From: Jeotgalibacillus malaysiensis
GTDB lineage: Bacteria; Bacillota; Bacilli; Bacillales; Jeotgalibacillaceae
DNA length: 64,000 bases
Direction of reading: 5' to 3'
NCBI GenBank assembly: GCA_000818095.1
Contig: CP009417.1
Span: forward strand, 310,001 to 374,000
Both the position numbers and the translations under genes were made by a program. This document shows positions 11,437-63,859 of the stretch, one piece after another. Below the pieces are notes generated by a model. The model had not been told where the DNA came from and did not search any database. It saw only the letters and a list, made by a program, of their open reading frames with translations. How positions within the stretch are numbered: the stretch's first letter is position 1; each line of letters opens with the position of its first letter.

Positions 11437-11466
11437 CATATATCATTCTATATTGACTATTGTCAA
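11437..11466 (-). promoter_or_regulatory. Tad-1 operon promoter with TTGAC-N4-GTCAA element
   Basis: On the minus strand TTGACA (11466-11461) is followed at 18 bases by TATATG. The exact element TTGACTATTGTCAA occupies 11453-11466 and covers the -35 box and the first part of the spacer. A repressor bound here would block RNA polymerase. Confidence 0.6.
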
Positions 11467-17588: not shown

Positions 17589-18338
17589 TTATAAATGGAT
17601 GCGTTCGTCTGAATACGTGGCTTCCACATACTTTTTGATTTTATCGATGCAGTTCTTTTGAATTTTTGAGACATTTGCCTGGCTCATATCAATCTCTTCT
17701 GCAATCGTTTTTTGTGTTTTGACCTGCAGACCGTTCAATCCATATCGTGAGTTCATGATATATTGCTCTTGTTCTGTCAGTTGTTCAATCGCCTCCATAA
17801 TAATATCCTTATCTTCAGCGATTTCATATTTATCTTCGATGCTAAGGACTTCTTCATTGGCATGCTCACTCAAGATGTCTTCTAATTCGAAGTTATTTCC
17901 GTTCTTGTCTTGTGAAAGAACCATCCCCATCGAAACAGTATTATCCCGATGCTTTTTCTCTTTGCGTAAGAAGAACTTCACTTCATTTTGCATACAGTTC
18001 ACAGCAAACGTAGAAAGTTTAACTCCACGTTTTTTATCGTAGGCATTGAGAGCTTTTGTAAAGCCCATCATACAGACAGAGAATAATTCATCATATGGAA
18101 GTCGTGTGTTACGGAATTTGTTTGCGACGTGGTGAATCAATTTCTCATTCTCGACGGCATAAATCTCTTTTTCCCACTGTTCAAGTTTCTCCGGGACATA
18201 ATCCTCTTTTGGTTCATCGTCAATAAAAATCAAGATATCCTCTGTGATATCCCCATCCTCTTGCTCCAAAAGCATATCAGCCAACTCTTCTAATCGGACA
18301 GTATCATTTACTACAATTTCTTCTGTATTCACTTCCAA
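17589..18338 (-). CDS. SigK/SigF-like sigma-70 family factor
   Basis: About 249 aa from a TTG at 18338; a GTG at 18332 has better spacing to GGGGG. Region 2 is clear: ENEKLIHHVANKFRNTRLPY, DELFSVCMMGFTKALNAYDK and KLSTFAVNCMQNEVKFFLR. Region 4 is a helix-turn-helix (TQKTIAEEIDMSQANVSKIQ). Overall it resembles sporulation factors of the SigK/SigE/SigF kind, without a pro-sequence and with an acidic N-terminal extension of about 55 residues. It should direct RNA polymerase to a plasmid gene set, possibly the pilus genes (inference). Confidence 0.88.
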   Translation of the reverse strand: MEVNTEEIVVNDTVRLEELADMLLEQEDGDITEDILIFIDDEPKEDYVPEKLEQWEKEIYAVENEKLIHHVANKFRNTRLPYDELFSVCMMGFTKALNAYDKKRGVKLSTFAVNCMQNEVKFFLRKEKKHRDNTVSMGMVLSQDKNGNNFELEDILSEHANEEVLSIEDKYEIAEDKDIIMEAIEQLTEQEQYIMNSRYGLNGLQVKTQKTIAEEIDMSQANVSKIQKNCIDKIKKYVEATYSDERIHL

Positions 18339-18446: not shown

Positions 18447-18474
18447 AGTATAATTTTATGTTGACTATAGTCTA
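18447..18474 (-). promoter_or_regulatory. Promoter of the sigma factor gene
   Basis: Minus strand TAGACT (18474-18469), 16-base spacer, TATACT (18452-18447). A near-match of the TTGAC-N4-GTCAA element (TTGACTATAGTCTA, 18461-18474) overlaps it. Confidence 0.55.
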
Positions 18475-18532: not shown

Positions 18533-18561
18533 TTGACTATTGTCAAATTATATTTTATAAT
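18533..18561 (+). promoter_or_regulatory. Promoter of the lipoprotein with exact TTGAC-N4-GTCAA element
   Basis: TTGACT (18533-18538), 17-base spacer, TATAAT (18556-18561). The exact element TTGACTATTGTCAA covers 18533-18546, so it includes the -35 box and eight bases of the spacer. Confidence 0.85.
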
Positions 18562-18617
18562 TTGGTAGACGTGATAGGTTTATATAAGAATAAAACTATT
18601 TAAAAGGAGTGATATGT

Positions 18618-19502
18618 ATGAAACAAAATAAAAGAACGAAGCAAACGAAGAAGTGGGCTGTAGCAGGGCTACTCGGTGCGGTTATGATTACGGGTGTGGC
18701 TTGTAGTAATGAACCGAAAGAACAGGCACCTGGAGCTGACGAACCAGTTCAAATCGCTAAGACGGATGAAAAGAAAGAAGTTGAAAAAGAAGAAGTTCAA
18801 TTAAAAGAGGTTTCCGTTGAAGTGGACTATTCAAAATCCGCACAAGAAATCCTAACGGCTTATTCAGAAGAAGGGATGAGTCGGTTTAAACTTAGCTATC
18901 CTGATACCTACTCTATGGAATATGCCTTAAAGACAATCGGAAGAGAAATGCCGAAGTTTGAAGGAAAAGATTTAAACGGAAAAACTATTACGTCAGACGA
19001 TTATAAGAATAAATCGTATATCGTCAACATTTCCAAATCCACTTGTGAAGTATGTCAAGAACTCGCACCGGTCATTCAAACTCTCGAAAAAGGGGAAGAC
19101 AAGATTCCGGTTATCAACCTCTACCCGATTGATAAATCAGAGGACGTGAAGGCACATCGTGAGAAAACGAAGTGGTCGAAAGACTCTATAGCCATTGTCG
19201 GGGATAAAAACAAGTCCATTGAGAATTTGGCAATCAAAGAGCTTGCCGTAGCAACTGTTCCAACTCTCCTATTTGTTGATAAGAGCGGTAAGATTTCGTA
19301 TATCAATATCGGTTTGACAGATGACGTTCTCTTGTCAGATATGAAGGAGAAAGCATTTGGAGAGGAAAAACTCTATGACTTCGTCCGAAAAGAAATGGTG
19401 AAAGTCGATAAGGATGGAAACGTTGTTAAACAAGAGCCATTAATTGACGAATCGAAAGACGATAAAAAAGTGACAAAGCCAGTAGAACCAAAGAAAGAAT
19501 AA
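18618..19502 (+). CDS. Thioredoxin-like lipoprotein (TlpA/ResA-like)
   Basis: 294 aa from the ATG at 18618, behind AAAAGGAG. A basic signal peptide ends in a lipobox-like TGVAC, so it is probably lipid-anchored outside the membrane. A Glu/Lys-rich spacer precedes a thioredoxin-fold domain at about residues 110-255. The redox motif is CEVC (SKSTCEVCQELAPVI), with the cis-Pro in VATVPTLLFVDKSGK. A charged tail follows. It may form or reshuffle disulphides in exported proteins such as the Cys-containing pseudopilin of Tad-1 (inference). Confidence 0.82.
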   Translation: MKQNKRTKQTKKWAVAGLLGAVMITGVACSNEPKEQAPGADEPVQIAKTDEKKEVEKEEVQLKEVSVEVDYSKSAQEILTAYSEEGMSRFKLSYPDTYSMEYALKTIGREMPKFEGKDLNGKTITSDDYKNKSYIVNISKSTCEVCQELAPVIQTLEKGEDKIPVINLYPIDKSEDVKAHREKTKWSKDSIAIVGDKNKSIENLAIKELAVATVPTLLFVDKSGKISYINIGLTDDVLLSDMKEKAFGEEKLYDFVRKEMVKVDKDGNVVKQEPLIDESKDDKKVTKPVEPKKE

Positions 19503-20888: not shown

Positions 20889-20902
20889 TTGACTATTGTC
20901 AA
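20889..20902 (-). promoter_or_regulatory. Exact TTGAC-N4-GTCAA element before the Tad-2 peptidase
   Basis: TTGACTATTGTCAA, 41 bases before the prepilin peptidase start. Read towards the gene it is TTGACAATAGTCAA; no clear -10 box follows at 17 bases, so it may act as an operator or weak promoter. Confidence 0.65.
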
Positions 20903-34162: not shown

Positions 34163-35125
34163 CTATTTCTTTTTACTATTTAACTTTTTCTGCAATTTGA
34201 CAATTTTTACGAACAGGTCTTTTCCTTCTGTCCAAACATCCTCATCTTCCCACTCTTCCTGTACGACTTGTTCAACGATGGAAACGAGTAAATTCTTTTC
34301 AACCGTTCCAATCGTTTTTCCTCCAACTTTTAAAGAAGAAACATTCAATAGGTCAAGAAGTTCAACCGGGTCTGATTTTGAAGGAAGTCCAAGGCTATCC
34401 GCACCTTGCCCAATCATGTTTAATACCATTGTTGGGTCATAATCAAGAGCCGTTGCTAGTTTGACCACGATTGGTACAGATGGTGCACGACGTTGGTTCT
34501 TTTCAAAACGATGAATGTAGGAAACTGAGATTCCTGCTTTATCTGCCAGGTCTTTGAGAGTGTACCCTTTTTGCTTTCGAGCAGAATGTAACCAAGTGCT
34601 GAAATCAAATTTTACACTACGTTCCAGGCGTTTTTGATAGATTCGGATACGCTTTTCAAATTCTCTTTCAATCACACTTTGGTATCCTACACCAATTTCT
34701 GTCATGATGTATTCCATGCTTTTCTTGTATTCTTTTTCAAGCTTCTTGATTTCGGTTTCTGGAATTTTCCCTTTATACTTCTCCTCTAGTTCTTCCATCT
34801 TTGACCAAATAGCTTGAACCGGTTCCCAACCTTTTTTATCAATCAATTCTTGGAACAGTTCCCCACGACTTGTTTTAATTCCGTCGTTATGTGCTTTGGC
34901 AAATTTCAACGCTTCTAAACTACGATAAAGCTTGGTAACAAATTCCGATGTAATAATGCGATGCTTCCATTCTTGTTGGATTTTATCAAACTCTTTTTCA
35001 ATTTTCGGGATATTATTTACAGCACCTTCTGCTTCTAACATCTGAATTAATTTGTTCGCTCGCATAATATCCTTTTGCTCTAATTCTTCTGTAACAGAAG
35101 CCCATTTGTTCTCATTTGACATCAT
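34163..35125 (-). CDS. XRE-family regulator with long helical N-domain
   Basis: 320 aa; GGAGG before a pair of ATG codons at 35125/35122. Residues about 175-235 are a Cro/C1-type helix-turn-helix (LHSARKQKGYTLKDLADKAG, SVSYIHRFEKNQRRAPS). Before it stand 170 mostly helical residues and behind it a C-terminal helical region. Lies next to the Tad-2 promoter and divergent from the promoter at 35180, so it could control either. Ligand and site unknown. Confidence 0.8.
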   Translation of the reverse strand: MMSNENKWASVTEELEQKDIMRANKLIQMLEAEGAVNNIPKIEKEFDKIQQEWKHRIITSEFVTKLYRSLEALKFAKAHNDGIKTSRGELFQELIDKKGWEPVQAIWSKMEELEEKYKGKIPETEIKKLEKEYKKSMEYIMTEIGVGYQSVIEREFEKRIRIYQKRLERSVKFDFSTWLHSARKQKGYTLKDLADKAGISVSYIHRFEKNQRRAPSVPIVVKLATALDYDPTMVLNMIGQGADSLGLPSKSDPVELLDLLNVSSLKVGGKTIGTVEKNLLVSIVEQVVQEEWEDEDVWTEGKDLFVKIVKLQKKLNSKKK

Positions 35126-35179: not shown

Positions 35180-35208
35180 TTGACTTTTGTCAAAAACGTC
35201 ATTATACT
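35180..35208 (+). promoter_or_regulatory. Promoter with TTGAC-N4-GTCAA element
   Basis: TTGACT (35180-35185), 17 bases, TATACT (35203-35208); TTGACTTTTGTCAA covers 35180-35193. A 16-base palindrome GTGACGAACTCGTCAC follows at about 35219-35234 and TTGACTGACAGTCAA at 35354-35368. Confidence 0.75.
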
Positions 35209-35399: not shown

Positions 35400-35675
35400 A
35401 TGGAAAAGAAAAAAATGACACGTGGTACAAAAAAATTGGTGGAAGACGCAATCTCTCAATTGGAGCCGTCTAAGAAAAATAATACAAATGCCATTTGCGA
35501 GAAAATGGTTGAAATGCTGGTAGACCGATTTGATGGTGCCAACCTTGATTATCAACTCAAACGAATGGACTTAGAGACGACTGGACGCATTATCGAGAAG
35601 ATTGATGAATACTTCCAAAAACACCCGAACCTTCTTTTTGAAGAAACGGATAGCCAAGAATTAGCGACTACGTGA
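35400..35675 (+). CDS. Hypothetical small protein, 91 aa
   Basis: AAGGGGGAATTT leader before the ATG, and a strong promoter with operator-like palindromes about 190 bases upstream, so it is regulated and probably well expressed. The product is soluble and helical: a basic start (EKKKMTRGTKKLVEDAISQL) and an acidic end. The size and charge would suit a DNA-binding or antirestriction-like protein, but no family is recognised. Confidence 0.6.
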   Translation: MEKKKMTRGTKKLVEDAISQLEPSKKNNTNAICEKMVEMLVDRFDGANLDYQLKRMDLETTGRIIEKIDEYFQKHPNLLFEETDSQELATT

Positions 35676-46371: not shown

Positions 46372-46397
46372 TTAAAACATCTCCTTTGAAATAAATT

Positions 46398-47062: not shown

Positions 47063-47091
47063 AGTCTACTTTTAATTTTGACTATTGTCAA
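47063..47091 (-). promoter_or_regulatory. YdjM-like gene promoter with exact TTGAC-N4-GTCAA element
   Basis: Minus strand TTGACA (47091-47086), 17-base spacer, TAGACT (47068-47063). The exact 14-base element covers 47078-47091. Confidence 0.8.
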
Positions 47092-47106: not shown

Positions 47107-47131
47107 TAAAAAAAGCCCTTTATTAGGGCTT
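47107..47131 (-). terminator. Terminator after the XRE gene
   Basis: Minus strand: AAGCCCT AATAA AGGGCTT followed by TTTTTATTTTTC; it starts inside the last codons. Confidence 0.8.
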
Positions 47132-47738
47132 ATGACGGTTCCTTGATACTTTTGACAACCCGCTGGAATCGTAGTGGATAACGTTCTTGCATATCCTTTT
47201 CGATTGCATCACGAGCCATTTTTTGATAAACACGTTCTTCTCTTCGTCTTACTTTCGCTTCCCGTGCTTTTTCAATCTCCTCATCCAACCGTTGTTCTAG
47301 TGATTGTTCAAGTAAGAGATGATATTGTTCTGCAGAAATGAGGCACTCACTTGTTGTATCCCAATGTTCAACTCCGTGTTCTTCTTCATAGTTCTTCACA
47401 TCGGGACCTTCGATGATTTTCAACTCAGCTAAATCCCAAAATACAGAGCGTCCATCGTTTGTAATCATCGTTTCCCATGCCGAGGCGTTCAGCGAGAAAA
47501 TCTCCTCAACCCGAACATCTAATACTTCAGCAATTTTAAGTGCCAAATCAATTCCAGGCTTCAACTTTCCATTGATGATAGAGCTCATCGTCTGTTTCGA
47601 AATTCCTGTTTTTCTTACTAGTGCCATCGTTGTCATTTGTTTTTTTAACAGCATATCTTCTAAATTTAAAGCAATGGTAGGTTCTTTGCTTTCGATTTGA
47701 TAGCCCATCTCATAAAGTTTCTCTAGTCGTGATTCCAT
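47130..47738 (-). CDS. XRE-family regulator, 202 aa
   Basis: A Cro/C1 helix-turn-helix fills about residues 20-80 (MTTMALVRKTGISKQTMSSI, KPGIDLALKIAEVLDVRVEE). The C-terminal 90 residues are a charged helix ending in basic residues (KAREAKVRRREERVYQKMAR). AAAGGAAG upstream. It sits beside the promoter at 47078 and is one of the candidates to bind the TTGAC-N4-GTCAA element; nothing proves that. Confidence 0.8.
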   Translation of the reverse strand: MESRLEKLYEMGYQIESKEPTIALNLEDMLLKKQMTTMALVRKTGISKQTMSSIINGKLKPGIDLALKIAEVLDVRVEEIFSLNASAWETMITNDGRSVFWDLAELKIIEGPDVKNYEEEHGVEHWDTTSECLISAEQYHLLLEQSLEQRLDEEIEKAREAKVRRREERVYQKMARDAIEKDMQERYPLRFQRVVKSIKEPS

Positions 47739-52062: not shown

Positions 52063-53523
52063 TTACTTTTTGAATAAGCTTCTGACAGAACCGAATAATC
52101 CACCGCTATCTACGTCTTTATCCGTTTGTCCTCTTTGAGTTTCACCTGTTTGCAATGTCCGTTTAGGACGAGGTGGAACCAATGAGACGAATTGTCCGTT
52201 CTTCGCTGTAAATCCTTCATCTGCCTTTGTCCATTCTGATTTCTCATCATAGACCATCGTTTTATCGAATATATCTTTTTCTTGTTCGAGGTCGGGCTTA
52301 GGTGGTTGTAGCGTGCGAGAACCGTTGATTTCAAGCGGTTTTAAAGTTGTCGTATTCGATTCGGTAGCGAGTTGTAGCTCATGAGTCTCTTCACTTTCTT
52401 CCAAATCTTCTTCAACCATCTCGTCTAGCTCTACCGATTCAATCGGCTCAGTGGACAACATCAAGTCATCAGAAACATATGTTTCTTCCGTATCAACTGA
52501 TGCTTCCTCTTCTTCCGTATCGGTCACAACGAATTCGTCTTTCTCCATAGTGGTCTCTTCCTCAGCTAGAAAAACTTCTTCATCTTCCAGTTCGAATGGG
52601 ATAACCCCTTGTTCTTCATTAACGGATTCCTCTACCGGCTTTGGTTCTTCTACGAAAGGTTCTGTTATCCGTCCTTGTTCTCGCTCAACATCGAATGATT
52701 CATTAATGACAAAGAAGCTTTCCGAAGACGTTTCTCCATTCACACCATCGTTCGTTCCATCGTCTTCGTCTTGAATCAAATCGAATGGCATATCTTCTTC
52801 ATTTACAGTCTCGACATCCTCTTGAGATGACAGCTGGTTAGGAATCTCAACCTCATCCTCTTTAATCAGGAAACCACTTACCCCTATTTCTTCATCCTCT
52901 TCTTCTACTACTAAGACAGGAGATGGAACAACTGGTGAAGTAGTTGGCTTTGGATAAGATGCAAATGGGTCAAAATCATCCTCGTCGTCATCGTCCGCAA
53001 TGATGACTGGACTAGAAGGGTGCGAAACATTCGGTACTGATTCATCTTGTTTCACGTGAAACGTATGTTCGTACTTCTCTGAATCTTTTGACTCTTCATT
53101 GACTTCCTCCTCAGCAGGTTCCGAATACAGAGTGTCGATTCCCTCTTTTTCTTCGATATCGTTCATCGCTTCCTCAAGCTTTGACCACAATACAGGGTTC
53201 CGGACGGGTTTATCGATGACATAGAAAGCACCATGTTCAAGTGGTGTCCGGTCTGCGTATCGATGGTGAAGCGAGATAATACGAATAGTTGGATATTCTG
53301 CTAAAATCTGTTTGATAAAATCGTTGTGTTCTTTCTTTGAAAACGTGCTGGACAATAATAAGATAGAAACGCCTAGCCGAAGAGTATCCAACAACTCTGA
53401 TTCATCCTTTGCAACATGAAAGGAACCCATTCTATCCGAAGTCGGGCTCTCCATTACGGCTCGGTTTAATAATCCTTGGATTGTAAGACGTTCTTCTGCT
53501 AATACAACAATATGCCTGTTCAA
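52063..53523 (-). CDS. Receiver-like protein with long acidic tail
   Basis: 486 aa from a TTG at 53523 behind GGAGGG. Residues 1-125 are a receiver-like domain (HIVVLAEERLTIQGLLNRAV, VSILLLSSTFSKKEHNDFIK, IRIISLHHRY) similar to the N-domains of the two CpaE-like proteins of Tad-2. Residues 130-440 are disordered and very acidic (EEDEEIGVSGFLIKEDEVEI, many Glu/Asp/Ser/Thr). The C-terminus is basic. There is no ATPase domain. It may be a partner or decoy for the CpaE proteins (inference). Confidence 0.65.
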   Translation of the reverse strand: MNRHIVVLAEERLTIQGLLNRAVMESPTSDRMGSFHVAKDESELLDTLRLGVSILLLSSTFSKKEHNDFIKQILAEYPTIRIISLHHRYADRTPLEHGAFYVIDKPVRNPVLWSKLEEAMNDIEEKEGIDTLYSEPAEEEVNEESKDSEKYEHTFHVKQDESVPNVSHPSSPVIIADDDDEDDFDPFASYPKPTTSPVVPSPVLVVEEEDEEIGVSGFLIKEDEVEIPNQLSSQEDVETVNEEDMPFDLIQDEDDGTNDGVNGETSSESFFVINESFDVEREQGRITEPFVEEPKPVEESVNEEQGVIPFELEDEEVFLAEEETTMEKDEFVVTDTEEEEASVDTEETYVSDDLMLSTEPIESVELDEMVEEDLEESEETHELQLATESNTTTLKPLEINGSRTLQPPKPDLEQEKDIFDKTMVYDEKSEWTKADEGFTAKNGQFVSLVPPRPKRTLQTGETQRGQTDKDVDSGGLFGSVRSLFKK

Positions 53524-53890: not shown

Positions 53891-53918
53891 TTGACAATAG
53901 TCAATGATAAGATAAAAG
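53891..53918 (+). promoter_or_regulatory. recD2 promoter region with exact TTGAC-N4-GTCAA element
   Basis: TTGACAATAGTCAA at 53891-53904. As a -35 box, TTGACA has TAAAAG at 16 bases, a weak -10. A hairpin GGTGA / TCACC (about 53930-53951) follows in the leader. Confidence 0.65.
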
Positions 53919-56291: not shown

Positions 56292-56951
56292 ATGATGATT
56301 GTTGTATCTGGAATGATTTCAGTAGGAAAAAGCAGTGTATCAAAAGCAGTAGGGGAGGCGTTAGGATTAGAGGTGTTTTACGAAAGTGTAGATGATAACC
56401 CCATTCTACCGCTGTTTTATACGTCAACACCGGAAGAGCAGGAGCGGAACCGATATCCGTTCCTCTTGCAATTACACTTCCTTTATACCCGTTTCAATGC
56501 CATCAAGCAGGCAATAGCGTGTGGTCAGGCGATTTTAGACAGAAGTTTGTACGAGGATTATTACTTCGCAAAAATCAATCACAAATTGGGACGCATCAGC
56601 GATTTGGAACTTCAAATCTATGAGGGAATCCTGGCTTCAATGATGGAGGAAATTAAAGGGATGCCAAAGAAAGCACCAGATTTGAATATTTATCTGAAAG
56701 CAAGCTTTGACACCGTCATGAAACGCCTTCATATGCGTGGTCGTGAGTTTGAGCAAGATGAATCACTTGTTGAATATTACCGTCTTCTATGGGCAGGGTA
56801 TGATGACTGGGTGAACGAAGAGTATAAAGCGAGTGATGTGTTAATTATTGACATGGATAAGCTTGACGTTGTTCACAATCAGGACGACCATGACTGGCTG
56901 ATTCAAAATGTAAAAGGAAAATTAGAAACGTTAGAGCTTAAGACCGCTTAA
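56292..56951 (+). CDS. Deoxynucleoside kinase (dCK/dGK family)
   Basis: 219 aa. P-loop SGMISVGKSSVSKAV, the ERS/DRS-type motif ILDRSLYEDYYF, and the LID Arg cluster KRLHMRGREFEQD are present. The family phosphorylates deoxyadenosine, deoxycytidine or deoxyguanosine; substrate choice cannot be read. CAAGGAG before the ATG, 18 bases after recD2, so both are in one transcript ended by a terminator. Confidence 0.87.
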   Translation: MMIVVSGMISVGKSSVSKAVGEALGLEVFYESVDDNPILPLFYTSTPEEQERNRYPFLLQLHFLYTRFNAIKQAIACGQAILDRSLYEDYYFAKINHKLGRISDLELQIYEGILASMMEEIKGMPKKAPDLNIYLKASFDTVMKRLHMRGREFEQDESLVEYYRLLWAGYDDWVNEEYKASDVLIIDMDKLDVVHNQDDHDWLIQNVKGKLETLELKTA

Positions 56952-56955
56952 AAAG

Positions 56956-56982
56956 AGACCCTGAAACAGGGTCTTATTTTTT
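56956..56982 (+). terminator. Terminator after the deoxynucleoside kinase
   Basis: AGACCCTG AAA CAGGGTCT then TATTTTTT. Its T-run flows into the next promoter element. Confidence 0.85.
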
Positions 56983-57030
56983 GACAATAGTCTATATAAA
57001 TATATTCAAAAGTGTATATTCGTGATATAC
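56981..57030 (+). promoter_or_regulatory. topB promoter region with near-exact element and second palindrome
   Basis: TTGACAATAGTCTA (56981-56994, two changes), with TATTCA at 16 bases. It is followed by GTATAT TCGTG ATATAC (57014-57030), an inverted repeat that holds TATACT and could be an operator. Confidence 0.5.
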
Positions 57031-57083
57031 TGAAAGGGTATAAGTGATGTAATACGGTTTGATAGGAGAGGGGAAGTAACGTA

Positions 57084-57119
57084 ATGTTTATCCCATTCTG
57101 TGTAAAAATATGCCATTAA
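57084..57119 (+). CDS. Possible 11-aa leader peptide before topB
   Basis: ATG with GGAGAGGGGAAG upstream, reading MFIPFCVKICH and then a stop. It lies in a 449-base leader (56952-57400) of which 57120-57360 is A+T-rich without other features. A GGGCA TC TGCCC hairpin (57362-57375) comes just before the topB ribosome site. May be an attenuator; evidence is the good binding site only. Confidence 0.3.
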   Translation: MFIPFCVKICH

Positions 57120-57400
57120 TAAAAAGATTTTCATTAAAACGAATTAAATTTTCTATTTCAAGTTATTTTATTTCATCTTGTGACTTTAAATGTTACAAAA
57201 AAATAAAAAATAGCACAAAATGCTTTAAAAGAGTGAATGCATTATTTTTAGACAAAATAAGAACATATTCTGCTATGAAAATGATTTGATTCTTCTCCCT
57301 TGTACACTCACTCACTTATGATTCCCAACGTGGAACATAGTATAGACACATCTGTTTCATATGGGCATCTGCCCAAATTTAAATTAAAGGAGTTGTTGAA

Positions 57401-59755
57401 ATGAGTCGTAAAAAAGCCATTTTAATTGCAGAGAAACCGAGCCTGATGCTCGAAATTCAAAGAACCTATAACGGGAACCGTTCCTCCATTCCTTATGATA
57501 TCGATTTCACGACGTTCGCAGGTCACGTCATGGGGTTAGTTCAACCTTCGGATTACAATCCAGCATGGGAAAAGTGGGATATGGCTCATCTTCCGATGAT
57601 GCCAGACACGTTTATTTACAAGCCGACACGTGATAAAGCCAAGATGTATAAAGAAGTGAAGGAAATTGTTCAAAAAGGCGGATATGACTTCGGTATCGTC
57701 GCAACTGACCCTGGTCGTGAGGGTGAGCTCATCGCATGGGCATTCCTTGATGAAATCAAAGTGAAGTTCCCGTTCAAACGTTTGTGGTTCTCAGACTTAA
57801 CGGAAGGGGAGCTATTGCGTGCTCTTCAAAATCTTCGAGATTATGATGCCGTATTAAACGGGATTAAGGAGGCGAGCTATAAACGGTCTCAAATGGACTG
57901 GCTGATTGGGATGAACTTTTCACGTGCCTACGGTCTATTAACTGGGAAGAACGCCCCTCTAGGTCGTGTAATGACCCCCACACTTAAAATCGTTGTTGAC
58001 CGAGAACTTGAACTCCGCAACTTTGTGCCGAAACCGTTCTGGGAAATTGAAGGTGATTTCGGGAAATACAAAGGAATTTACCTAGACGAAGAAGGAAATA
58101 GTTCATTCTTAGATAAAGCGAAAGCAGAAGCCTTGATTCCTCAATTCGGTTTGAAAGGTAAAATTATTGATGTTACGAAGAAAAAGGAGACGAAATACGC
58201 TCCAGAGCTTCACAGCCTCGCAAACCTTCAAAATGAATGTAACCGTTTGTTTGGATACACAATGTCCGAAACGCTTGCAGTGGCTCAATCCCTCTACGAG
58301 AAAAAACTTCTTTCCTACCCTCGTACAGACTCCGCCTATTTAACAGAAGCTATCGCTAAAGAGTTTAACAAGATGTTAAAACCTCTTACACAACTCCCAG
58401 AATTAAAAGCAGAAGCCGATGCGGTTATCGTCAACACTTCATTGCTTTCAACGACAGCAAAAAACAAGAAGTATGTCAACGATAAAAAGGTTTCTGACCA
58501 CTACGCTATCACTCCTACCGGTATGATTCCCGACTTAGGAAAGTTAACGAAAGATGAGGTCAATGTCTACATGACGGTTGCCAAACGTTTCCTAGCGATT
58601 TTCCTTCCGCCAATGGAAACACAAAAGACAACGATTTTGACCGATGCAAATGGTCACACGTTTAAGACAAACGGTAGTTTGCTTCAAGACCTTGGATATA
58701 TGCGTCTTTATCCAACGAACAGCAAAGATACGTTGTTGCCTGCTGTTAAGAAAGGCGATGTCGTAGACCTTGTCAATACCCGTCTCATTGAGAAGAAGAC
58801 AAGTCCTCCGCCTCGTTACAATGATGAAAGCTTAAACCGAATCATGGAGAATGTCGCCCGCCTCATCGAGGATGATGAACTAAAAGAAGTCATGAAAGAA
58901 GCAAAAGGAATCGGGACGCCTGCGACACGAGGTAGTATCGTTGATAAACTGGTTGAGAAGAACATGATTGAACGTAAGAAGAAATCGTTCTACGCAACAG
59001 ATTATGGTATCAGCCTCATCGAGGGAATCGGTGACCTTGACATTGCTTCCCCGCTCCTTACGGCACATTGGGAAAGCAAATTGACTGAGATGGAAAAAGC
59101 GAATTACAACCCTGTCGATTTTGACAAAGAAATGCGGTCGTATATTGCGGAAACCGTTGAGAAAATTAAACATCTCAAGGTTCGTATCTCAAGTGACAAA
59201 CCTTCTTTGGGAGCATGTCCGAAGTGCGGCTCAAAAGTGGTGGACGGGAAAGACTATTACCTCTGTGAACAGTATAAAAACACGTGTGATTTCATTGTGG
59301 GACATACTGTTTGGGGAGCAAAACTTACCAAGACAGAGCTCAAAAAGATTTTGGACGGAAAAGAAACAAAGAAAATGAGTTTCGACAATGGGAAGAAACA
59401 ATGGGAAGCGACACTTGTCTTTGATAAGGCAAAGGGAAATCTCACATTCGGAAATGGCAACAAAGGTTCATCCTCTAAAGCATCCGGCACTTCATCAGGC
59501 AAACATGTCGGGAAATGTCCAAAATGTGGAGGGAATGTCACAGAGGCAGAGAAATTCTACGCTTGCGAGAATAATCGTAAGACTTGTGACACAATTATCT
59601 GGAAACAGGTAAGCGGAGCCAAGGTCACGCTAACAGATGCCAAACAACTTCTTGCAGGAAAAGAAACTGCTGAGAAAGAGTTTACATGGAAGTCCGGCAA
59701 AAAAGGAAAAGCGAAGCTAAAGTACACGAACAAAGTTGAGTTTGTCTTTGATTGA
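57401..59755 (+). CDS. topB: DNA topoisomerase III
   Basis: 784 aa. Toprim domain from ILIAEKPSLMLEIQ to the metal site VATDPGREGELIAWAF; the active-site Tyr is in LLSYPRTDSAYL (about residue 305); KGIGTPATRGSIVDKL is a further family motif. The C-terminus has two zinc-ribbon repeats (CPKCGSKVVDG ... CEQYKNTC, and CPKCGGNVTEA ... CENNRKTC), each followed by a WGAKLT/VSGAKVT domain. Type IA enzymes separate linked DNA, for example in plasmid replication or transfer. AAAGGAG before the ATG. Confidence 0.94.
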   Translation: MSRKKAILIAEKPSLMLEIQRTYNGNRSSIPYDIDFTTFAGHVMGLVQPSDYNPAWEKWDMAHLPMMPDTFIYKPTRDKAKMYKEVKEIVQKGGYDFGIVATDPGREGELIAWAFLDEIKVKFPFKRLWFSDLTEGELLRALQNLRDYDAVLNGIKEASYKRSQMDWLIGMNFSRAYGLLTGKNAPLGRVMTPTLKIVVDRELELRNFVPKPFWEIEGDFGKYKGIYLDEEGNSSFLDKAKAEALIPQFGLKGKIIDVTKKKETKYAPELHSLANLQNECNRLFGYTMSETLAVAQSLYEKKLLSYPRTDSAYLTEAIAKEFNKMLKPLTQLPELKAEADAVIVNTSLLSTTAKNKKYVNDKKVSDHYAITPTGMIPDLGKLTKDEVNVYMTVAKRFLAIFLPPMETQKTTILTDANGHTFKTNGSLLQDLGYMRLYPTNSKDTLLPAVKKGDVVDLVNTRLIEKKTSPPPRYNDESLNRIMENVARLIEDDELKEVMKEAKGIGTPATRGSIVDKLVEKNMIERKKKSFYATDYGISLIEGIGDLDIASPLLTAHWESKLTEMEKANYNPVDFDKEMRSYIAETVEKIKHLKVRISSDKPSLGACPKCGSKVVDGKDYYLCEQYKNTCDFIVGHTVWGAKLTKTELKKILDGKETKKMSFDNGKKQWEATLVFDKAKGNLTFGNGNKGSSSKASGTSSGKHVGKCPKCGGNVTEAEKFYACENNRKTCDTIIWKQVSGAKVTLTDAKQLLAGKETAEKEFTWKSGKKGKAKLKYTNKVEFVFD

Positions 59756-63269: not shown

Positions 63270-63797
63270 TTAATAGGTTGTTTCAATGACTCCGAAATCA
63301 CCATCTTTACGTGTGTAGAGCAAACAGATGGTATTCTGCATATCTGCATTGGCGAAGATAAATTGTTCGTGTCCCAGCATTTTCATCTGAAGGACAGCTT
63401 CTTTTTCGGACATCGGTTTCATCTCAAAACGTTTTCGCTTTGTTACCTCTGCCGAAACCTCGATGTCTTCTACTTCTTGAGACATCGGTGTTTTGTCCTG
63501 TAGGGTTTCCTTCTTGAATGCACGACTAAGTTTCTCAATGCCTCGAAGGTGTTTCTTCAGTCGTTTAGCAAGCTGAGGGAAGAGGACGTAAATGTCTCGA
63601 CCATTCTGTTCCAATCGCACAACGTCTCCATTGTGGTAAAATAGGACACTTGCCTTGTGTGTAGGGTTTGCCTCGATAGTGACCGTCACCGGTTTATCTT
63701 CTGGAAGCACCTCCGTTAAAAATGCGAGTTCTTCCTCCACCATGTGTTTCATGGCATCTGTTAATTCGAGTTGTTTGCCAGTAATGACTAGATTCAT
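63270..63797 (-). CDS. hpf: Long-form ribosome hibernation-promoting factor
   Basis: 175 aa. The N-domain (MNLVITGKQLELTDAMKHMV, beta-alpha-beta-beta-beta-alpha) ends in LKKHLRGIEK; a linker follows; the C-domain KRKRFEMKPMSEKEAVLQMK ... NTICLLYTRKDGDFGVIE is the dimerising part of long HPF. Long HPF pairs 70S ribosomes into inactive 100S dimers. A chromosomal copy is expected in the host, so this is a plasmid-borne second copy. GGGGATG before the ATG. Its promoter carries the exact TTGAC-N4-GTCAA element. Confidence 0.9.
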   Translation of the reverse strand: MNLVITGKQLELTDAMKHMVEEELAFLTEVLPEDKPVTVTIEANPTHKASVLFYHNGDVVRLEQNGRDIYVLFPQLAKRLKKHLRGIEKLSRAFKKETLQDKTPMSQEVEDIEVSAEVTKRKRFEMKPMSEKEAVLQMKMLGHEQFIFANADMQNTICLLYTRKDGDFGVIETTY

Positions 63798-63830: not shown

Positions 63831-63859
63831 ATCATAGTTCAACTTTTGACTATTGTCAA
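63831..63859 (-). promoter_or_regulatory. hpf promoter with exact TTGAC-N4-GTCAA element
   Basis: Minus strand TTGACA (63859-63854), 17-base spacer, TATGAT (63836-63831). The exact 14-base element is at 63846-63859. The rest of the tail, to 64000, has only a TATAAT at about 63972-63977 (plus strand) and no gene. Confidence 0.82.

Follow-up and report, generated by a model that had tools for sequence, protein, structure and literature searches.

RK2 KorA, a small plasmid helix-turn-helix repressor, is described as binding a short palindromic site in numerous promoters of the backbone and as controlling the whole replicon, with seven operators of a 12-bp consensus given in the portion of the account drawn on here (PMC4889941). 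In SPbeta, the sections cited present MrpR as the master repressor that binds SPBRE, an element found again and again in the promoters of a single mobile replicon (PMC10516654). Cluster A mycobacteriophages carry stoperators, which the excerpted description gives as dispersed 13-bp repressor sites, up to 30 per genome and mostly in one orientation relative to transcription (PMC6550527), and which part of a second account characterizes as asymmetric sites that stop elongation (PMC9283540). A further report, again in the part cited, predicts TTGACnnnnGTCAA as a site of the CRP/FNR-type regulator HcpR (PMC1274295).

The locus that we compare with these systems lies upstream of a topB-like type IA topoisomerase gene (57401-59755, + strand, ATG at 57401) within a 64-kb window, the whole stretch of DNA analyzed, which corresponds to positions 310001-374000 of the 603,070-base second contig (C2) of a two-contig genome of 4.12 Mb; the host chromosome contig is termed C1. 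Relatives of C2 were plasmids of Aneurinibacillus (W01), Brevibacillus halotolerans (W02), Paenibacillus polymyxa SC2 (W03), P. thiaminolyticus (W04) and Geobacillus (W05), together with the 739-kb contig 1 of Bacillus sp. M6-12. The gene order recD-like helicase, topB, VirD4-like gene (plus raiA where shown) is kept on W01-W05, and 89 of the 790 called ORFs of C2 match all three of W02, W03 and W04 (tblastn, E 1e-4); judged by this gene order and these common ORFs, C2 thus belongs, as a plasmid-like replicon, to a family of megaplasmids. Its conjugation-type genes include the VirD4-like gene, named from relatives, and a PrgI-family match above its Pfam cut-off, whereas a T4SS-pilin match was weak and fell below its own. 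The raiA-like gene of the window (ribosome hibernation; 63270-63797, - strand), whose name we take from its location and its resemblance to genes on relatives, belongs to the backbone of the plasmid family, with raiA annotated on W01-W03 and an S30EA-domain gene on W05. Unusual cargo with matches on relatives comprises PARP with a WGR domain, Thg1-like, KASIII-like and RlaP-family proteins (C2:286895-288166, C2:41036-41854, C2:26910-27899 and C2:455544-456341), with three KASIII-like proteins among the C2 ORFs scanned.

An earlier note on the topB leader had drawn attention to a near-exact TTGAC element, which is present as TTGACAATAGTC at 56981-56992 and lies very strongly beyond chance. Within the window, TTGACAATAGTC occurs at 26 places with up to two mismatches, against 9.0 expected and with none of 100 shuffles reaching 26, and the whole genome holds 160 places with up to one mismatch compared with 30 for the reversed pattern; every exact place among the matches listed is on C2. 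The element is a copy of a 14-base palindrome, TTGACWATWGTCAA, of which C2 carries 94 exact copies, 43 with one mismatch and 45 with two, whereas one Markov-randomized copy of the replicon carries 0, 2 and 20, so that 137 sites with up to one mismatch stand against two. The exact count for the entire genome is also 94, and C1 therefore has no exact copy. The note was thus right that the TTGAC element matters, in the capacity of a replicon-wide promoter or operator element: a single palindrome recurs at many promoters of the replicon and is absent from the chromosome, as for a plasmid global repressor. Among 397 genomes of the order, 43 had a match, the host included, and the 396 genomes other than the host held between none and two each. 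The promoter form of the motif was found in 21 stretches of viral contigs, with one or two sites each within the stretch examined, and in 109 stretches of genome contigs, the 80 listed including three on M6-12 contig 1 and one on the Aneurinibacillus plasmid. Five promoter-form matches among those listed fell on different contigs of Parabacteroides sp. PF5-9, where they may belong to some other, unrelated regulon whose box is similar. A literature search with three exact 14-mers returned no match, and shorter or degenerate forms led, by title and abstract opening, to one relevant paper, the HcpR prediction (PMC1274295).

The association of the palindrome with promoters is close. A strict -10 box (at least four of the six TATAAT bases, with A2 and T6 required) lies 16-18 nt downstream in at least one direction at 124 of the 137 sites, compared with 71 of 542 in a shifted control and 93 of 896 for other TTGACW words, the latter counted on one strand only. 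At 116 of these 124 sites the strand of the -10 box has an ORF start no more than 800 nt away (median distance 66 nt, 98 of the 116 within 150 nt), and only 10 of the 137 sites lie inside an ORF of at least 100 aa. The logo, built from 75 sites with a 17-nt spacer in the first 464 kb read, shows TTGACWATWGTCAA, followed by an A/T-rich spacer and by a TATAAT whose tail is weak. Motif-wide, this is a TTGACA-like -35 box separated by 16-18 nt from a TATAAT-like -10 box, a promoter of sigma-A type whose -35 box and early spacer lie under the palindrome. The -35 box is where repressors act, and a dimer bound there would normally exclude sigma; by covering it, the palindrome sits where a repressor would.

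The copies in the window illustrate this arrangement. Exact copies at 11453-11466, at 47078-47091, where -10 boxes face both directions, and at 53891-53904, upstream of both the recD-like helicase gene and ORF 52063-53523 (- strand; in position, the counterpart of the response-regulator gene of relatives), are joined by exact copies on the - strand at 20889-20902, 54 nt before an ORF, and at 63846-63859, 62 nt before the raiA-like gene. A divergent region between a sigma-factor gene (17589-18338, - strand) and a thioredoxin-fold gene (18609-19502, + strand) holds two putative operators with -10 boxes aimed at one gene each: a one-mismatch copy at 18461-18474 (- strand) points to the former and an exact copy at 18533-18546 (+ strand) to the latter. 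By Pfam the product of the former belongs to the sigma-70 family, one of two such proteins encoded on C2, the other at C2:208638-209789 (- strand).

The motif recurs on related replicons and at some orthologous promoters. Whole records contain 3 (W01), 2 (W02), 6 (W03), 7 (W04) and 0 (W05) exact copies of TTGACWATWGTCAA, with none for the reversed control in any, and the genome of Bacillus sp. M6-12 contains 16, of which 15 are on contig 1 and one elsewhere, again with none for the reversed control; contig 1 also holds the topB and XRE orthologues (see below). With up to one mismatch, the whole records of W02, W03 and W04 hold 22, 34 and 33 sites, against 0, 0 and 1 in one Markov copy each, and 80 kb of W01 hold five. 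The W05 record holds none at this threshold and four with two mismatches (Markov copy, none). A figure of 17 sites in 80 kb of M6-12 overstates the density and was set aside as evidence, the stretches there, like some of those of W04, having been picked around known exact sites. De novo counts of 9-mers put TATAGTCAA (TTGACTATA) at the top in W01, W02 and W04; in W03 it comes second, after the overlapping CTATAGTCA. Ahead of the recD block, C2, W02 (Brevibacillus) and W03 (P. polymyxa) all have exact copies in the same stretch between genes, and a TTGACTATA-type site stands upstream of topB on W01-W04, as TTGACTATAGTATAAT on W02-W04 and TTGACTATAATATA on W01; no such site was seen upstream of topB on W05. 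C2 also has another dispersed element, TTTCAAAGG[AG], in 56 copies compared with 8, 6, 0 and 1 on W02-W05; examples lie at 46381-46393 (- strand) of the window, L082:1591-1603 (+ strand) and L081:19217-19229 (+ strand). A possible start codon follows 4-14 nt downstream in 50 of the 56, often behind a small hairpin, and the preceding 32 nt fold at -4 kcal/mol or below at 29 of 50 such sites, compared with 94 of 264 other ribosome sites.

Taken from the letters and their distribution, the likely reading of these observations is that the roughly 137 copies constitute an operator to which a dimeric repressor encoded on the replicon would bind, over the -35 boxes, and so keep many promoters down at once, much as a plasmid global repressor or a prophage repressor does, and that the topB promoter has been altered. 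The leading candidate for such a protein is an XRE-family (HTH_3) product encoded at 34163-35125 (- strand), found by Pfam, which gives three HTH_3 matches on C2, and by a profile search. A profile built from C2, W01, W03 and W04 matched all seven replicons over 212-298 of its 298 positions, including independent finds on W02, M6-12 and W05 and two copies on W01, whereas the rest of the two genomes gave HTH-level matches only. A conserved gene for a 91-aa protein (35400-35675, + strand) diverges from the XRE gene; the pair is back-to-back on C2, W01, W03, W04 and M6-12 and, from cut pieces, also on W02 and W05. A predicted binding site lies in this divergent promoter region: on C2 it is a one-mismatch variant, TTGACTTTTGTCAA, with an altered centre (35180-35193, + strand), 17 nt before TATACT. 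Putative operators with up to one mismatch occupy the same interval on C2 and W01-W04, and one with two mismatches was seen by eye on M6-12; the distance to the TATAAT that follows is 16 nt on W02 and 17 nt on both W03 and W04. In the recognition-helix region, the sequence is SVSYIHR for C2, SxSYINR for the five other motif-bearing replicons and TASYLYR for W05, which has both the XRE and 91-aa genes yet no site with up to one mismatch. These features form a suggestive, circumstantial link between the XRE protein and the palindrome, and we assign the operator to it tentatively, at somewhat short of an even chance.

The helix argument is not unique to the XRE protein, because an HTH_26 protein (47130-47738, - strand; Pfam, conserved), the second candidate regulator, also differs in W05, with an SRQN- or SKQT-type sequence in place of SRQQV. 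That the palindrome is bound by a replicon regulator other than the XRE protein is accordingly a serious possibility, which we rate as less likely than not. It could be the HTH_26 protein, the 91-aa protein, a sigma factor, or an MrpR-like degenerate tyrosine recombinase encoded at C2:55821-56849. Both the HTH_26 and the 91-aa proteins are conserved, and the Pfam scan for regulators, which covered 60 of the 89 ORFs common to W02-W04 and gave several of them no hit, leaves room for others. The structure model of the 91-aa protein, four helices at a pLDDT of 51, is of low confidence and was left out of account; a relative was found in one viral contig, with no sites at up to two mismatches in the 8.2 kb of it examined. 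Two tyrosine-recombinase-family proteins of C2 were aligned at the catalytic positions of the family: the protein at C2:1064-2143 (- strand) keeps them, and that at C2:55821-56849 (+ strand) lacks several. A recombinase fold acting as a repressor has a precedent in MrpR, as outlined in the part of the source cited (PMC10516654), and no counterpart of the degenerate protein was detected on W05, matching the absence of the motif there. However, its best matches on W02-W04 fit the intact XerD-like paralogue better and keep catalytic residues, and MrpR (8A0A) was not among its four matches to solved structures at E 0.1.

A replicon protein bound to the palindrome might instead help polymerase, as an activator or anti-silencing factor, acting at topB from about two helical turns upstream. 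Such a role would suit a palindrome found at very many promoters, and it would account for a topB region that keeps all 14 bases although its -10 box has moved, but the palindrome covers the -35 box itself at the 124 sites with a -10 box, and we regard activation as improbable.

At topB, a probable member of the replicon-wide regulon, the arrangement departs from that seen motif-wide. The putative operator TTGACAATAGTCTA (56981-56994, + strand) contains a TTGACA that would be the -35 box, and TATACT (57026-57031) follows 39 nt after it, compared with 17 nt in the M6-12 relative, where the topB promoter consists of the full 14 bases TTGACAATAGTCTA, a 17-nt spacer and then TATACTGAAAG. TATAT flanks the extra 22 bp on both sides (56993-56997 and 57015-57019), a hint of insertion or duplication. 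TG stands one base upstream of TATACT, so that TG-A-TATACT (57023-57031, + strand, read directly) is likely an extended -10 box, with a poor -35 box TATTCA (57003-57008) and a start near 57038. In DNA with a G+C content of 28%, chance alone can produce an extra 22 bp and a hexamer resembling a -10 box. The topB site is one of the 13 of 137 without a -10 box at the proper distance and therefore may be a relic. On each of five related replicons, the promoter of the topB orthologue has either the whole operator or a half of it, and for this reason topB would be an old member of the regulon. Here it is probably transcribed from a weak promoter of the extended -10 type, with a start near 57038, and displacement of the operator by about two helical turns upstream may have loosened its repression. 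Between this -10 box and the topB start lie some 370 nt of AT-rich sequence, including a mini-ORF and a hairpin, for which the relatives seen show no counterpart; on W04, too, a long gap (~520 b) precedes topB, but the TTGACTATA site there is close to the topB start.

The earlier note had described a leader of unusual length with a mini-gene and hairpins, which implies a regulatory device. The letters it described are all in place, and such a device is not supported. A GTATAT-TCGTG-ATATAC dyad does occupy 57014-57030, overlapping the likely -10 box, at a chance level of occurrence: 6-bp dyads with gaps of 3-8 nt number three in the leader, against a shuffle mean of 1.7, and 25% of 1000 shuffles reach three. 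Nor does its recurrence point to an operator, with one exact copy in the window and four with up to two mismatches, against 1.7 expected and with 7 of 100 shuffles reaching four. The 11-codon ATG...TAA frame stands at 57084-57119 (+ strand), 10 nt by direct reading after the ribosome-site-like letters AGGAGAGGGG at 57064-57073, with no evidence of function and a fold score for its stretch of z 0.03. The TGGGCA/TGCCCA hairpin TGGGCATCTGCCCA at 57362-57375 (+ strand), which includes the GGGCA/TGCCC pairing of the note and does precede the topB ribosome site, folds in its context at shuffle level (z -0.44), as does the leader RNA 57037-57420 as a whole (z -0.56). The leader is long, as claimed, without being exceptional: its 449-b gap is the sixth longest among 55 between the 56 called ORFs of at least 80 aa in the window, and some of these gaps may contain shorter genes. 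Beyond chance is the fold at 56955-56975 (+ strand, pattern-listed on both strands; z -4.0), an intrinsic terminator, unnamed in the note, of the upstream gene (56292-56951), whose product, from its sequence, may be deoxynucleoside-kinase-like; the terminator runs straight into the TTGAC element. The terminator-like pattern scan gave three sites against 0.2 expected, namely the small hairpin and this terminator on both strands. A pattern search for a standard sigma-70 promoter on either strand found none, compared with 2.6 in shuffles, and no Rfam family matched at gathering score within the 64-kb window. In a DNA search of 56900-58400 against 72,556 plasmid records, two matched, both solely inside topB; in viral contigs no topB relative was confirmed. 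By eye, none of the six relatives has a counterpart of the leader upstream of topB.

It is thus very unlikely that translation of the 11-codon mini-gene and the leader hairpins control topB as an attenuator, leader peptide or riboswitch. The letters are present, and the hairpin, terminator-like by pattern, lies close to the topB ribosome site, but the structures are of shuffle stability, Rfam is blank and the relatives lack a counterpart; folding, Rfam and relatives give an RNA switch no support, and the topB leader as a device is probably ordinary. About as unlikely is a CRP/FNR-type regulator of the host chromosome, for which TTGAC-N4-GTCAA, identical to the HcpR box as predicted in the cited part of that report (PMC1274295), and two HTH_Crp_2 matches above cut-off on C1 would speak, since the host chromosome lacks the motif and 396 other genomes of the order rarely have it, yet plasmids of several genera carry it, and since HTH_Crp_2 is missing from C2 (no PF13545 match at E 0.001, the 10 of the genome all being on C1), gave nothing above cut-off on W02-W05 and one match on W01.

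A more far-reaching proposal, which we put forward as rather doubtful, is that this conjugative-type megaplasmid is run like a temperate phage, one divergent XRE/91-aa switch using a single operator to control upwards of 120 promoters, the same switch, with operators that drift slowly, serving a whole family of Bacillales megaplasmids, and topB escaping here. If true, the plasmid would be silent throughout in established hosts, would be expressed in a burst when it enters a new cell, and related megaplasmids would show immunity to one another. Known plasmid-wide repression concerns small backbones with a handful of operators; one operator at more than 100 promoters of a 600-kb replicon, and again on relatives from several genera, would help to explain the low cost of giant plasmids and would offer an immunity-like test, in which one megaplasmid silences another. 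A reading confined to the single leader would have missed the replicon-wide element, and we suggest that the TTGAC element before topB is the marker of a replicon-wide regulon worth testing.

Among described systems, the KorA network of RK2 works in the same way as proposed here, a likeness in mode of action, and the seven KorA operators of the account cited (PMC4889941) compare with ~137 sites over -35 boxes on the 603 kb of C2. By titles and abstract openings, a literature search returned no description of a megaplasmid-wide repressor of this kind. The MrpR/SPBRE system of SPbeta, as far as the cited sections describe it (PMC10516654), is alike in having a repeated promoter element on one mobile replicon. 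When the same k-mer method was applied to 100 of the 128 kb of phi3T, it recovered a AATAAAAATAAAAT-type element, also upstream of aimR (L346:18663-18886; elsewhere in L345/L346), a useful positive control for the method. We infer that this element is SPBRE; on that footing TTGACWATWGTCAA, which is unrelated to the AATAAAAATAAAAT type, is not SPBRE. Cluster A stoperators, in the excerpts available (PMC6550527, PMC9283540), are alike in being dispersed repressor sites and differ in being asymmetric, whereas on C2 the site is palindromic and goes with -10 boxes. Compared with the HcpR box, as the part of the prediction cited gives it (PMC1274295), the C2 motif has a fixed WATW centre and lies over -35 boxes, on a replicon in which no HTH_Crp_2 protein was found. 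As far as the cited portions of these accounts allow comparison, the C2 system differs from RK2 kor, MrpR and the stoperators in the number of its sites and, where this was tested (phi3T), in their sequence.
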